Shown one piece after another: positions 4,061-62,497 of a DNA stretch of 64,000 bases. The notes under the pieces are model-generated. The model was not told the origin of the DNA. It ran no database searches and was given only the letters and a program-made list of their open reading frames with translations. Both the position numbers and the translations under genes were made by a program. Origin of the DNA: Chloroflexia bacterium SDU3-3 (GTDB lineage Bacteria; Chloroflexota; Chloroflexia; Chloroflexales; Roseiflexaceae); NCBI GenBank assembly GCA_009268125.1, contig WBOU01000005.1, positions 372,001-436,000 of the forward strand, in the 5' to 3' direction. Position 1 is the first letter of the stretch, and every line of letters starts with the position of its first letter.

Positions 4061-4327
4061 ACCACGAAGATTCTTTTACCACCAAGATTCTTTTACCACC
4101 AAGGCTCCAAGACACCAAGATTCGCAAGAGGATGAATACCACGAAGGCGCGAAGACGCGAAGGGAACGAAAGAACCGTTTACCACCAAGGCTCCAAGACA
4201 CCAAGATTCAGAAGAATATGCATAGTGCGAAGAAGCAACGGCGCGAAAAAAACAGGAAATAGAAAGCAGAAAAACACCAAGGCTCCGCAGGAAAAAACCT
4301 TGGAGCCTTGGTGTCTTGGTGGTAAAC
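4061..4327. repeat. Family A repeats, locus A1
   Basis: This 317-bp gap contains no gene. It holds ACCACGAAG and ACCACCAAG-type strings built on a period of about 9 bp around CCAAG or CGAAG. Forward-facing copies occupy 4061-4215. A reverse-facing copy (CCTTGGAGCCTTGGTGTC, then TTGGTGGTAAA) occupies about 4300-4327, so the ends can pair over a long distance. The gap lies between the SulP stop and the response-regulator start, both on the minus strand. Confidence 0.85.
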
Positions 4328-42931: not shown

Positions 42932-43115
42932 GCCCTTGGTGTCTTGGCGGCTTGGTGGTAAAGAATCTTCGCGCCTTCGCGTCTTCGTGGTTATGGGTTC
43001 TCTTGTTTCCCTTGGTGTCTTGGAGTCTTGGTGGTAAAGAGTCTTCGCGCCTTCGCGTCTTCGTGGTATTCGTCCCCTTTGTTCCCTTAGTGTCTTGGTG
43101 TCTTGGTGGTAAAAC
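42932..43115 (-). repeat. Family A repeats, locus A6
   Basis: Five reverse-facing units alternating CTTGGTGTCTTGG..TTGGTGGTAAA and CGCGCCTTCGCGTCTTCGTGG. It adjoins reverse-facing B5, so the A-then-B polarity is kept. It fills the space up to the NarL-type regulator stop. Confidence 0.88.
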
Positions 43116-46674: not shown

Positions 46675-47088
46675 CTACTGACCAAGCTGCTTGAAATGCA
46701 GCATGAACTTCAGCGCCCGCGAGCCATGATCGGCCATTGTGCTGCTGTCGAAGGCCTCGCTCATAAAGTCGACGAAGCCGTCGGGCGCATCGCTATCGCT
46801 CAGCCGCTTGAAGCCCATCGACCACTCGCCAAAGCTGCGCTTGAGGATCGGCGACTCATCCAGCATGACCACATGCTGGTGCCGCGGGTCGGCGAGGACG
46901 CGGGCGTAGACGCGGCGCACCGCTTCCTCCTCGCCCTCAAGGATCTGCATAAAGTCGCCGTCGCGGTAGAGCAGCAGGCCGGTGAGCCCAAGCGCGTGAT
47001 TGTTGCGGCGGCTCACCGCAAGCAGGCTGTCAAGCTCGGCATCCCCAAACGGCTCGACGGAACAGCTGATGTAGATGATACGGATCAT
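46675..47088 (-). CDS. BLUF-domain blue-light photoreceptor (intact)
   Basis: A 137-residue single BLUF domain. The FAD-site residues of PixD/AppA are all present at a constant offset: Tyr6, Asn30, Gln48 (FMQILEG), Trp89 and Met91 (FGEWSMGF). The short C-terminal helices (PDGFVDFMSEAF and ALKFMLHFKQL) fit a PixD-like stand-alone photoreceptor that signals by protein contact. AAGAGGAG lies 5 bp before the ATG. It is divergent from the STAND regulator at 47369. A damaged paralogue of the same length lies at 53553-53966. Confidence 0.93.
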   Translation of the reverse strand: MIRIIYISCSVEPFGDAELDSLLAVSRRNNHALGLTGLLLYRDGDFMQILEGEEEAVRRVYARVLADPRHQHVVMLDESPILKRSFGEWSMGFKRLSDSDAPDGFVDFMSEAFDSSTMADHGSRALKFMLHFKQLGQ

Positions 47089-50017: not shown

Positions 50018-52900
50018 CTAGCACACCGTCGGGTCGCAGGCCAAATCGCCATCGATGGTGATCGGTATCTGCACCGGGCCGCCCAGCTGCGCCCCATGCG
50101 GCAAGAACAGGCCGAGCGTGAAATCCTCATCCAGCTCAATCGCCTTGTCGGTCAGCAGGTTGATCTCGATGTACTTTCGCGTCTCGCCGGGCGCAAAGCT
50201 GATCGTGCCCTTGAGCGCTTTGAAATCGACATCTTCGACCGCGCTGCCGCTGCTGCTGAAGTAGCTCACCTTCACCAGCTGGCTGGATGGCGCGCTCAGC
50301 TCGACCGCGACCAGCAGCGTGGTGCCCTCGGCGCCGTGGTAGTGGGCAGGGGTGAAGCGGATCGTATCGTTTGGCAGGATGGCGACCTTGGCCTCGGACG
50401 GCGGGCTGACGCTGCTGCCGCCGGTGGCGGTCAGCTGGACCGTGAACAGCTCCTCGCCCTCCTGGATGGCATCTTCGTTGATCGGGATGCTGAGCTCCTG
50501 GGTCTGCTGGCCAGGCGCGAAGCTGATCGTCCCCGCCACACCCGCCGGGAAATCTGCGCCCGCCGTGGCGCTGCCGCCCACCGCCGTATAGCCAAAGCTG
50601 AGCTGCTGCTGGCTGGGCTGGCTCAGCTCCACGGTCAGCTGCACGCTGCCCGCGCCCTCGTGCACCTCGTAGCGGGCCGCGCTAAAATGGGCGCTGGTAT
50701 CGTCATCATGGATCACCACCTTCGTGGTTGTCTGCAAATCCAGATCGACCTGCGGGTTACCGATCAGCGCCAGCTGGAATTGCTCGCTTGGCTCGTACTG
50801 GCTGTCGTTGATCAGCGGCACGCGCAGATTGGCCGAGTGCTGGGTGTGGCTGAAGGTGATGCTGCCGGTGGTAGCTTGGTAGTCGCTGCCCGCCTGGGCG
50901 GTCTCATCCTGGGTGGTGTAGCTGATCACCGCCGTCTCGCCGGGTTCCATGGTGCCGATCTGCCGGATGGCCACGTCAACATAGCCTATATTCTCATACA
51001 CATAGTAGGCTGGCGCGCCAACCATAAACTGGGCCTTCGCAGAGATGTAGATGACCGCCATCTCTACCGGCCCGATCGTTGCGCCATCGGCGTTGTAGAG
51101 CGAGAAAGAGAGGCTCTCCTGAACCTCGGTCTTGGTATCGTTGAGGATAGCGATGTGCACCAGCTTCTCGACCTCGCCAGGGGCGAAGGTGACGCTGCTG
51201 TCGACGGCGATGTAGTCCTCTCCCGCGCGGGCGTTGGCATCCCCCGTTCGGTAGTAGGCGGTCACCGGCTCGGCGGCGGGCTGGCTCAGCCGCACCGGCA
51301 CCACGATCTCGCCCGCCCACTCCTTCACGTTGAAAAATGGCTGGGAGATCGAGACGCTGCTATTGCCGATCGCAAGATCCCCCAGGTAGTAGCTGCCATC
51401 GCTCTGCTTGCCTCCAATCGCAAGGTTTAGCGGCACCTGATAGGGCGCGGGAGCCGCCACCTGGACGTGCAGCGCATAGGTACCGGCGGGCAGCGTGGCC
51501 GGTAGGTCAAATGCATCGGTTGTGGTCACCGGGCCGGTGGCCGCCTCAAGCACACTGCCGAGCTGGAACGCCGACTCGCCCTGCCATACGACCGCGCCAT
51601 TGTTGCGCAGCTGGAAGGTGGGGTGGACGGCATCGTAGATCGGCGCGTTGCCATGATTGCGCCAGGTGGACTCGATCGCCATCTGGTTCCCGGCAAAAGC
51701 GCCGAGCACGCGAACCTGATCAATGCCATAGCGGTAGCCTGCCAGCTTGCCTGCCTGCACCATATCGCGCACGTTCTCGTCGGTCCAGCTGGAGCTGGGG
51801 TCGCGGGTGCATGCGTTGTCGGGCGAGCTGTAGGGCGGCTGCTTGTAGGGCGGCGCAAAGTTGCCGTTGCCCACCAGCGAGACATGGTACTTGGGCACCT
51901 GGCTTTTTGCCAGCGCAAACTGGGCCTGGGCCTCGGCTATGGGTTCGTCGGCCAGATATTCGCCGATCATCTCGGTGAAGACTGGCTCGTACTTCCAGCG
52001 CTCGCGGATGGCCTCGCCCACGGGCACGCCATGGATCACCGCCGTGCTCTGCATGGCGCGGTCGATATTCTGCATCTGGGCATCATGCCCCAGCGCATCG
52101 CGGAACCAGCCCCAGCGCGGCATCTTGGTCATCGCATACTGGAAGATATACTGGTTGTTGTTGATCGAAGCACCATCACTACCATCGTTCTGCTGATCCG
52201 ACAGCGCTATCTGAAGACGGTAGAGGCCGCGCAGCCGGCTGTGCCAGGCATCCACCATCCACTCGGCGGTCGCGGGGCTGGCCCAGATCGAGCTGCTGGC
52301 AGGGGTCTTGCGATTGATGTAGTTCTCGCCATACTTGCCGTAGCTGCGCATCTGGACACCGGCGATCCACGGGTGATCGGGGCTGTTGGCGGGGAACTCC
52401 TGCACAAAGCTATCGAGCAGCAGCTCTAGGCGCTGCCGCACCTGGGGGTTGTTGTAGTTGGGGTACCACACCCCGTCTGACCAATCGCCCCAGCCATCCT
52501 GCACCATATAGTTTGGCACGGCGGTCAGCGTACTCGTCACACTCACGCCGATGCCAAGCCAGACCCGCTGGCCGCGCGTGCGCGCCTTGTTCAGAACCTC
52601 ATGCACCTTGCTCCAGTCATAGGTGCCCGGCGAGGACTCAAGTTTGCTCCACGCCCAGCGCTCATACTTATCTTTGTTCGAGATCAGGGCTGGGTCGCAG
52701 ATGTAGGGCGGGGCCTGCCAGCGATACAGCCCGCGCCCAGGGTTGGGGATCTCATTGTTCTGCTCGATGGCGATCTGCTGCGGCTGGTAGGTTCCTTCGC
52801 CAATCGTTGTGAGCGGCCTGGCCTGGGCTGTCGGCGGGCCATGCGCTGGCGCGATAGCAGAAATGATCAGAATGGCTAGCCCTAAGAGCTGTCGTTTCAT
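50018..52900 (-). CDS. Secreted DUF4832/DUF4874-type barrel with Calx-beta domains
   Basis: A 960-residue exported protein. Signal peptide about 1-26. The N-terminal 430 residues begin NEIPNPGRGLYRW and include WLGIGVSVTSTL and WIAGVQMRSYGKYGEN, matching the DUF4874/DUF4832 hydrolase-like barrel. A short beta-domain follows (about 430-510), then four Calx-beta repeats marked by ARAGEDYIAVDSSVTFAPGE, AQAGSDYQATTGSITFSH, ATAGADFPAGVAGTISFAPGQ and AVEDVDFKALKGTISFAPGE. It probably binds calcium and carbohydrate at the cell surface. The stop is 17 bp from the shared hairpin with the STAND gene. Confidence 0.7.
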   Translation of the reverse strand: MKRQLLGLAILIISAIAPAHGPPTAQARPLTTIGEGTYQPQQIAIEQNNEIPNPGRGLYRWQAPPYICDPALISNKDKYERWAWSKLESSPGTYDWSKVHEVLNKARTRGQRVWLGIGVSVTSTLTAVPNYMVQDGWGDWSDGVWYPNYNNPQVRQRLELLLDSFVQEFPANSPDHPWIAGVQMRSYGKYGENYINRKTPASSSIWASPATAEWMVDAWHSRLRGLYRLQIALSDQQNDGSDGASINNNQYIFQYAMTKMPRWGWFRDALGHDAQMQNIDRAMQSTAVIHGVPVGEAIRERWKYEPVFTEMIGEYLADEPIAEAQAQFALAKSQVPKYHVSLVGNGNFAPPYKQPPYSSPDNACTRDPSSSWTDENVRDMVQAGKLAGYRYGIDQVRVLGAFAGNQMAIESTWRNHGNAPIYDAVHPTFQLRNNGAVVWQGESAFQLGSVLEAATGPVTTTDAFDLPATLPAGTYALHVQVAAPAPYQVPLNLAIGGKQSDGSYYLGDLAIGNSSVSISQPFFNVKEWAGEIVVPVRLSQPAAEPVTAYYRTGDANARAGEDYIAVDSSVTFAPGEVEKLVHIAILNDTKTEVQESLSFSLYNADGATIGPVEMAVIYISAKAQFMVGAPAYYVYENIGYVDVAIRQIGTMEPGETAVISYTTQDETAQAGSDYQATTGSITFSHTQHSANLRVPLINDSQYEPSEQFQLALIGNPQVDLDLQTTTKVVIHDDDTSAHFSAARYEVHEGAGSVQLTVELSQPSQQQLSFGYTAVGGSATAGADFPAGVAGTISFAPGQQTQELSIPINEDAIQEGEELFTVQLTATGGSSVSPPSEAKVAILPNDTIRFTPAHYHGAEGTTLLVAVELSAPSSQLVKVSYFSSSGSAVEDVDFKALKGTISFAPGETRKYIEINLLTDKAIELDEDFTLGLFLPHGAQLGGPVQIPITIDGDLACDPTVC

Positions 52901-52982
52901 AGATAGAGGTGGCTCCTTGCGCCCACCGAACGAGGCAGATGCCGCGCTCGGTGGGCGCTCGCTGATTACTGGGGAGGCCGCG

Positions 52983-53414
52983 CTACGGCGCGAAGTAGAC
53001 CGAGATCGAGTGGATGTAGTAGCCGCCATCGGTGCCGTTGGCATCATCGACGGCGGAAAACAGCGAGTGGCCCTGGAAGCTGCCCGACTGGGTGATGTTG
53101 AGCTACGCCCGCACCGAGCAGAAGGTGGTGTTGTAGCAGGTCTGGCTGCCGACGCTGCGCCCGCCATAGCTGGAGGTGAGGATGGTCTCGACATAGATCA
53201 CATCCGCCGGAGTGTTGCATGTGACGTTGCCCACCGAGATGGCGGTGGTCTTGCCGAGCTTGTAGGGCTTGCCGACGGATGGCGTGCAGGAGAGGTAGCC
53301 AGCGGTGCTGGCCGTGGGGGCCGCCGTGGCGGGCACGGATGCCGCAGTAAGCGCGATCAGCGCCGTGGCGGCGCTGGCCGCAGCCCGCGCGGCGAGCAGA
53401 GAAAACATGCGCAT
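52983..53414 (-). pseudogene. Small secreted Cys-containing protein, broken by TAG
   Basis: Strong ribosome site AAGGAGG and ATG at 53414 start a signal peptide (FSLLAARAAASAATALIALT, cut after about residue 33) and a mature protein with four Cys (YLSCTPS, NVTCNTP, QTCYNTTFCSV). TAG at 53103-53105 stops it at 103 residues. Reading on in the same frame gives 39 more residues of ordinary sequence (LNITQSGSFQGHSLF, then GGYYIHSISVYFAP) and a second TAG at 52983. One substitution (for example CAG to TAG) explains the break. No family recognised. It may still yield the short form. Confidence 0.65.
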
Positions 53415-53552
53415 CGGTTCCTCCTTGTGGTCGTTGCGGTTATTCGCTAGGCACAAGGAGTATAGAAAAGACGCGGGGGTGTGGAGTCCGAAGAAGATCC
53501 GAAAGCTGGCCAACATGTGTTGCGCTATCGTCCAGGCAGTGCCCGGGGTGCG

Positions 53553-53966
53553 CTACCAGCTCGCCTCGCGGAAGCTGAGCATGAACTGGAACGCCGCGCT
53601 GCCGCGACCCGGCAGCTGGTCGATATCGCTCGCCGTGTCGAAGAAATCGACAAAACCAGGCGCGAGCGCAGCCGTGTGGATGCGGTGAAAGCCCATCCAT
53701 CACGCGCCAAAGCTGCGCTGATCGATCGGCGAGTCATCGAGCTGAACGATATGGGTGTGGCGGGGGTCGCGGCAGATCGTGGCGTAGACCGCGCGCACCG
53801 TGCGCTCCTCGCCCTCCAGGATCTGCATGAAGCTGCCAGCGCGATACAGCAGCAGCCCGGTGATACCGCGCGCCTGGTTGTTCCGGCGGCTGCTATCGAG
53901 CAGGGCCTCAAGTTCAGGCTGGGAAAACGGGCGAGCAGCCGAGCTAACGTAGATGATGCGGATCAT
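53553..53966 (-). pseudogene. Second BLUF photoreceptor, stopped at the key Trp codon
   Basis: The frame starts at ATG 53966 (AGGTG upstream) and gives Tyr6, Asn30 and Gln48 (FMQILEG) as in the intact BLUF gene. Codon 89, where the paralogue has Trp89, is TGA (53700-53702); codon 91 is the conserved Met. After the TGA the same frame continues WMGFHRIHTAALAPGFVDFF and AFQFMLSFREASW to TAG at 53553. The full frame is 414 bp, exactly the length of the intact gene at 46675-47088. A single TGG to TGA transition accounts for it. An 88-residue product would lack the last strand and the Trp/Met switch. Confidence 0.8.
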
Positions 53967-54138: not shown

Positions 54139-54243
54139 TTTACCACGAAGGCGCGAAAGCGCGAAGATTTTATTTTCGAATCTTCGCGCCTTCGTGATAT
54201 GCGTTCTCTTTTGTCGCCTTGGTGTCTTGGGATCTTGGTAGTA
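54139..54243. repeat. Family A repeats, locus A8, with internal hairpin
   Basis: One forward unit (ACCACGAAGGCGCGAAAG) and reverse units to 54243. GCGCGAAGATT (54159-54169) pairs with AATCTTCGCGC (54179-54189) around a 9-nt loop. The 343-bp gap between the YrbL-like stop and BLUF2 start holds nothing else that I can identify. Confidence 0.8.
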
Positions 54244-62427: not shown

Positions 62428-62497
62428 TCCCTTCGTGTCTTCGCGCCTTCGTGGTATTCGTTCGCTTTTTGTCCCTTGGTGTCTTGGTGGTAAAAAC
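62428..62497 (-). repeat. Family A repeats, locus A11
   Basis: Two reverse-facing units (CGTGTCTTCGCGCCTTCGTGG type and CCTTGGTGTCTTGGTGGTAA), just upstream of the radical-SAM promoter. The rest of 62348-62568 has no gene. Confidence 0.82.

Follow-up and report, generated by a model that had tools for sequence, protein, structure and literature searches.

An in-frame TGA at the signalling-tryptophan codon of a short BLUF gene in a Chloroflexia bacterium, probably a young pseudogene

The BLUF2 locus and its surroundings

Within the window (the whole 64,000-nucleotide stretch of DNA that was analysed, positions 372,001 to 436,000 of its contig) lie two genes for short photoreceptors of the BLUF family, referred to here as BLUF1 and BLUF2, and a search of the complete assembly (6.76 Mb, 51 contigs) returned exactly these two BLUF matches, the one to BLUF2 with "1 TGA" inside. 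BLUF2 lies on the minus strand, a point on which the first-pass annotation was silent. The features on which the discussion depends are as follows:

46675..47088, minus strand: BLUF1, the intact paralogue, 137 amino acids, with Trp89-Ser-Met91
53553..53966, minus strand: BLUF2, a short BLUF photoreceptor gene of 137 codons with one in-frame interruption (from translation and Pfam BLUF)
53703..53966, minus strand: pre-stop part of BLUF2, 88 codons, strands 1–4 and helices 1–2 of the BLUF fold
53700..53702, minus strand: in-frame TGA, codon 89, at the site of the invariant signalling Trp (from the sequence and the homologue alignment)
53697..53699, minus strand: codon 90, TGG (Trp), which is Ser in the paralogue and Trp in none of the sampled homologues
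53553..53699, minus strand: post-stop part of BLUF2, strand 5 and both C-terminal helices, with the frame open to a TAG
52983..53414, minus strand: next gene downstream, a small protein with a signal-peptide-like start and an apparent in-frame interruption
53103..53105, minus strand: in-frame TAG, codon 104 of the downstream gene, followed by 39 coding-like codons

Read from 53966 to 53553, BLUF2 translates as MIRIIYVSSAARPF...QRSFGA*WMGFHRI...FREASW*, that is, 88 codons, the TGA, 48 further codons and a normal end at a TAG (53555-53553), and its total of 414 bp is the length of BLUF1. Specifically, where BLUF1 reads GGC GAG TGG TCG ATG GGC, BLUF2 reads GGC GCG TGA TGG ATG GGC, codon 91 thus being ATG. 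The first-pass annotation had placed a nonsense codon exactly at the signalling Trp, and the sequence bears this out, as the TGA at 53702-53700 aligns with the TGG of BLUF1; the description it gave of BLUF1 at 46675, with Trp89-Ser-Met91 and the same 414 bp, can likewise be read directly from the sequence. The two proteins are 57% identical over a gapless alignment. With its stop read as Trp, BLUF2 scores 110.2 bits against the Pfam BLUF profile (PF04940) over positions 1-92 of 92, compared with 104 bits for BLUF1 and a cut-off of 25; taken straight from the genome with the stop included, it scores 105.7 bits, again exceeding the curated cut-off. The flavin-pocket residues Tyr6, Asn30 and Gln48 are all present, and each corresponds to an invariant column of the BLUF2-led alignment. 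BLUF2 is a gene of BLUF descent whose normally terminated product, without the signalling Trp and without the strand-5 Met because Met91 lies beyond the TGA, is not a complete BLUF domain. A scan for promoters and terminators found nothing.

In domain length and in its flavin-pocket residues BLUF2 is like the known short BLUFs of PF04940, among them Tll0078 (TePixD), Slr1694 (PixD) and BlsA; the solved structure nearest to BLUF1 by sequence is that of Tll0078 (1x0p). BLUF2 departs from these proteins in carrying a stop in place of the invariant Trp, and no fixed partner gene is seen nearby. How unusual such a stop is can be judged from the homologues, of which 84 were gathered in a first round and 117 in all, the counts being made on those readable at each position. 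Trp occupies position 89 in 116 of 116 and Met occupies position 91 in 115 of 115, while position 90 varies among S, T, A, E, H, G, R, Q and D and is W in none. Among the BLUF matches listed for the Pseudomonadota (from 119 of the 398 genomes), as among the other matches from the Chloroflexota, no in-frame stop was found. Because the Trp is invariant and the other listed BLUF matches have no in-frame stop, the stop in BLUF2 is exceptional; it is neither chance nor a habit of the family, and it falls exactly on the invariant signalling Trp.

It is also worth considering how BLUF genes are distributed among the Chloroflexota, where they are rare (5 of 400 genomes searched, 4 of them above the cut-off). 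Their sequences lie dispersed over a tree of weak resolution, in some cases within proteobacterial branches, and this scatter suggests that the Chloroflexota BLUF genes were gained by gene transfer. A duplication of BLUF1 and BLUF2 in this lineage is not established, as the pair groups weakly (support 91/14). One relative from the order (G033) agrees with a Herpetosiphonaceae record in its BLUF residues 84-93 and in identity score, and relatives from the phylum match records of Anaerolineales, which places the genome in the Chloroflexota.

The gene downstream of BLUF2 follows on the same strand after a gap of 138 bp. The 39 codons after its TAG are strongly coding-like in composition, with a score of 16.7 compared with 7.0 in the best other frame, and they stop short of the next gene. 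In a 1.24-Mb sample of the genome, almost every other continuation of this kind has a start codon early on and a long frame behind it, and so amounts to two ordinary genes read in one frame; the stops in BLUF2 and in the downstream gene, about 600 bp apart, stand out among the 915 gene calls of that sample. No homologue of the gene at 52983-53414 was found when one was searched for, so its interruption is a call made from codon statistics alone. We favour a common local cause for the two stops, namely a recent loss of selection at the locus or, less likely, a poor consensus sequence; that adjacent genes are interrupted by different stops (TGA and TAG) argues against a device specific to TGA.

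The codons beyond the stop and the fragment before it

Beyond the TGA, BLUF2 has no indel and no second stop, its GC3 is 0.83 (0.82 in the pre-stop part), and the conserved columns M91, G92, F93, P103, G104, F108, A125 and F132 are all retained. The coding score of these codons is +11.9, as compared with +17.1 in BLUF1. Scored against the family profile, the post-stop part of BLUF2 yields 14.4 bits and that of BLUF1 20.9, while the pre-stop parts yield 129.8 and 117.7 bits, respectively. The two paralogues are 40% identical after the stop; pairs matched for pre-stop identity have a mean of 49% (sd 12%), which puts BLUF1 and BLUF2 at the 19th percentile, a difference that is not significant. 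In simulations, neutral substitution in the post-stop part of up to ~5–10% is still compatible with the data. These observations mean that the 48 codons are compatible alike with a very young stop, with slight decay or with continued constraint. The earlier proposal that the mutation is recent agrees well with the survival of frame, length, coding composition and conserved post-stop positions. The accompanying statement that the rest of the gene shows no decay holds for the frame and the conserved columns, but codon 90 is unlike anything in the family and the wording was too strong.

The structure predicted for BLUF2 with its stop read through (mean pLDDT 84) has strands at residues 2-10, 36-42, 45-52, 70-80 and 90-95 and helices at 16-33, 54-66, 105-117 and 122-134. 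On this model the TGA deletes Trp89, Met91, all of strand 5 and both C-terminal helices, and the earlier claim that only this Trp and the last strand would be lost is wrong. This is significant for the proposal, made at the same time, that a flavin-binding fragment could act in trans on the intact BLUF. In such a scheme the 88-residue product would fold, bind flavin and act on BLUF1; strands 1–4 and helices 1–2 are predicted to be kept and are modelled with a pLDDT of 96 (AlphaFold confidence is not stability), and the three flavin-pocket residues are retained. Nonetheless, the fragment lacks strand 5 and both C-terminal helices, and in BlsA, also a short BLUF, overexpression of the protein with the equivalent single change, W92A, gave largely insoluble material (PMC6695109), although the same study reports a motility phenotype which argues that part of the protein works in the cell (PMC6695109). 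In AppA, the W104A protein is insensitive to light in vivo (PMC7005313). The extent of the loss and the behaviour of these mutants make a trans-acting flavin-binding fragment unlikely. Furthermore, the retained post-stop codons would serve no purpose unless the stop were very young, and no natural BLUF is confirmed as ending at this point: three candidates were set aside, for reasons of a contig end, divergent sequence at that point and a W-S-M motif still present. We find a functional truncation of this kind scarcely credible. A new frame opened by the overlapping TGATG (87 codons, 53440-53703) was likewise set aside; the same frame in BLUF1 stops early, and off-frame open runs of that length are common here (20 of 163).

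Stop-codon usage and the reading of UGA

It is informative to examine the stop in BLUF2 in light of how this genome ends its genes. Using a simple codon-score script that was the same for all genomes compared, the gene ends in the 1.24-Mb sample comprise 653 TAG (about 71%), 157 TGA (17%) and 105 TAA, whereas by the same method the share of genes ending in TGA is 63% (G002) and 81% (G001) in GC-rich relatives from its family. The TGA/TAG ratio in this genome is about 0.24, as against a bacterial mean of 3.1 with a wide spread (PMC10471768). The shift towards TAG deserves study in its own right, since TAG is as a rule the less used stop and its use in bacteria is uncorrelated with GC3, with no rise as GC content rises (PMC9348620). 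Neither the loop of release factor RF2 nor the tRNA-Trp explains the preference, since both are common to TGA-rich relatives. The preference for TAG is the more surprising item when set beside the BLUF2 stop, though it is incidental to it.

Several routes by which UGA might be translated can be set against the genome. Insertion of selenocysteine is ruled out, as neither tRNA-Sec nor SelB is found above cut-off in the genome and the eight best tRNA-Sec-like loci are ordinary tRNAs; BLUF2 is like the selenoprotein genes in its single in-frame TGA, but its homologues have Trp, not Cys, at that position. RF2 is present above cut-off and intact, and its gene has the conserved autoregulatory CTTTGAC frameshift site with the spacing seen in most relatives, which together indicate that UGA acts as a stop signal in this lineage. 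An altered RF2 was considered because the loop SPFNSGNTRQTSF looked odd, and was rejected because relatives that end most of their genes in TGA have near-identical loops. A similarity search found one tRNA-Trp, a single-copy gene with a CCA anticodon (L090, 1297-1373), in which the lowest pair of the anticodon stem is a C31.U39 mismatch. Identical copies of this gene are, however, present in a number of other genera and families across the order, and a special tRNA-Trp was on that account rejected. A9 and G24 are normal, these being the sites of known suppressor changes (PMC13092985), and none of the changes known to let tRNA-Trp read UGA (a UCA anticodon, A9C, G24A or a top-unpinned 4-bp stem) is present in it. 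Compared with systems in which UGA is read as Trp by tRNA-Trp(UCA), the Hirsh G24A change, A9C or a 4-bp anticodon stem (PMC13092985), BLUF2 is similar in having TGA at a Trp position and in the imperfect stem of the tRNA, and it differs in the CCA anticodon, in the normal positions 9 and 24, in a tRNA common to relatives and in that in-frame TGA is not found genome-wide.

A general reassignment of TGA can also be rejected, since a coding-like continuation in frame is rarer past TGA (5 of 157 ends in the 1.24-Mb sample) than past TAG (39 of 653) or TAA (12 of 105). Among the other TGA candidates, one (L237) is a response regulator followed by a histidine kinase, two ordinary genes end to end, and two more (L191 and L246) are without domain support. 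The RNA downstream of the TGA in BLUF2 folds strongly, with a z of -4.5 that lies in the lowest 0.8% of GC-matched windows; we have set this aside as a read-through signal, as it comes from a single sequence.

The probable origin of the stop

Of the ways to account for an in-frame TGA at this position, we consider it probable that BLUF2 is a young nonsense pseudogene of a short BLUF sensor, the outcome of an ordinary recent breakage. A single TGA at an invariant Trp within a frame that is otherwise intact counts in favour of this, and a post-stop profile score and identity that are slightly low, if not significantly so, are what would be expected had constraint just been lifted. BLUF2 is similar in its one stop, intact frame and slight decay to the single-nonsense pseudogenes and in-frame-stop genes of bacteria (PMC7918605), and differs from them in that the stop falls on the Trp with the heaviest functional role in the domain and that the adjacent gene is apparently interrupted too. 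Against a pseudogene, it can be said that the post-stop codons are still coding-like and conserved, such that constraint might persist, and that the fold following the TGA is unusually strong in a genome that avoids TGA as a stop. The same two features enter the case for read-through, according to which the TGA would be translated to some extent, with tRNA-Trp(CCA) most likely inserting Trp, and read-through would set the amount of full-length BLUF2. The stop lies exactly on a Trp codon with the frame preserved, a genome that seldom ends genes in TGA has room for leaky decoding of UGA, the anticodon stem of the tRNA-Trp is imperfect, and leaky reading of UGA as Trp does occur occasionally in bacteria (PMC7918605). 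Nonetheless, relatives in which TGA is the predominant stop have this tRNA-Trp and a near-identical RF2 loop, the UGA of the RF2 frameshift site is retained, other TGA interruptions are not in excess, the stop of the adjacent gene is TAG and the selenocysteine system is absent. The first-pass suggestion that the codon is read through thus gained no positive support, and we regard read-through as quite improbable. A broader version, in which the lineage has largely abandoned UGA as a terminator and UGA is leaky and read as Trp at this one site, with the amount of light sensor dependent on read-through, is highly improbable.

It is also necessary to consider that the TGA may be absent from the organism, having arisen as a consensus or assembly error or as a base from a minority strain. 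The base is known from a single draft assembly in 51 contigs, where the presence of another apparent stop ~600 bp away may be the sign of a low-quality stretch. However, the change is a substitution outside any homopolymer and involves no indel, and codon 90 is unusual as well, with the effect that one base error would leave part of the departure unexplained. Furthermore, random errors at a density that yields two stops would be expected to have harmed the pre-stop half of BLUF2 too, and yet this half outscores that of BLUF1 against the family profile. An artefact of this kind is unlikely. We infer that the organism itself carries the stop, that the gene is inactivated by it, that it had a single-event origin and that selection on the locus is relaxed.

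If BLUF2 is indeed a young pseudogene, a nonsense mutation would have converted the codon for the signalling Trp to TGA, and it is possible to imagine how this occurred. BLUF1 (TGG TCG ATG G) and BLUF2 (TGA TGG ATG G) differ here by two bases, and in BLUF2 one GATG stands beside another in a perfect repeat, GATGGATGG. One short templated event, in which GGTC became GATG beside the existing GATG, may have altered codon 90 as well; the stop and W90 could then both stem from a single slippage-templated event. It is also possible that there were two separate substitutions or that W90 is ancestral, BLUF1 being merely a stand-in for the ancestor. In either case translation would end after residue 88, and the product, deprived of Trp89, Met91, strand 5 and the C-terminal helices, would not signal and would probably be unstable, leaving BLUF1 as the sole complete BLUF sensor of the genome. 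As the downstream gene also looks newly interrupted, the whole locus may have lost selection. As a probable young pseudogene of a known photoreceptor family, BLUF2 matters mainly for annotation, with one complete BLUF sensor to be counted instead of two; a TGA shown to be decoded as Trp would instead make it an uncommon natural example of read-through at a residue essential to function, against a background of stop-codon usage that has moved away from TGA.

Two further observations concern the annotation of the window. The ORF at 50018-53194 (minus strand) seems to be falsely extended by its first ~100 codons, which overlap the putative secreted-protein gene at 52983-53414, and the DUF4832/Calx-beta protein of this ORF probably starts later, at MKRQLLGLAILI. 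In addition, a repeat of the form AATCTTCGCGCCTTCGTGRT is present in 7 copies in the window, where 0 would be expected by chance, at 4138-4157, 42964-43067, 54142-54198 and 62436-62455; the occurrence at 54141-54199 is a 28-nt inverted repeat that lies between BLUF2 and the upstream kinase-like gene.
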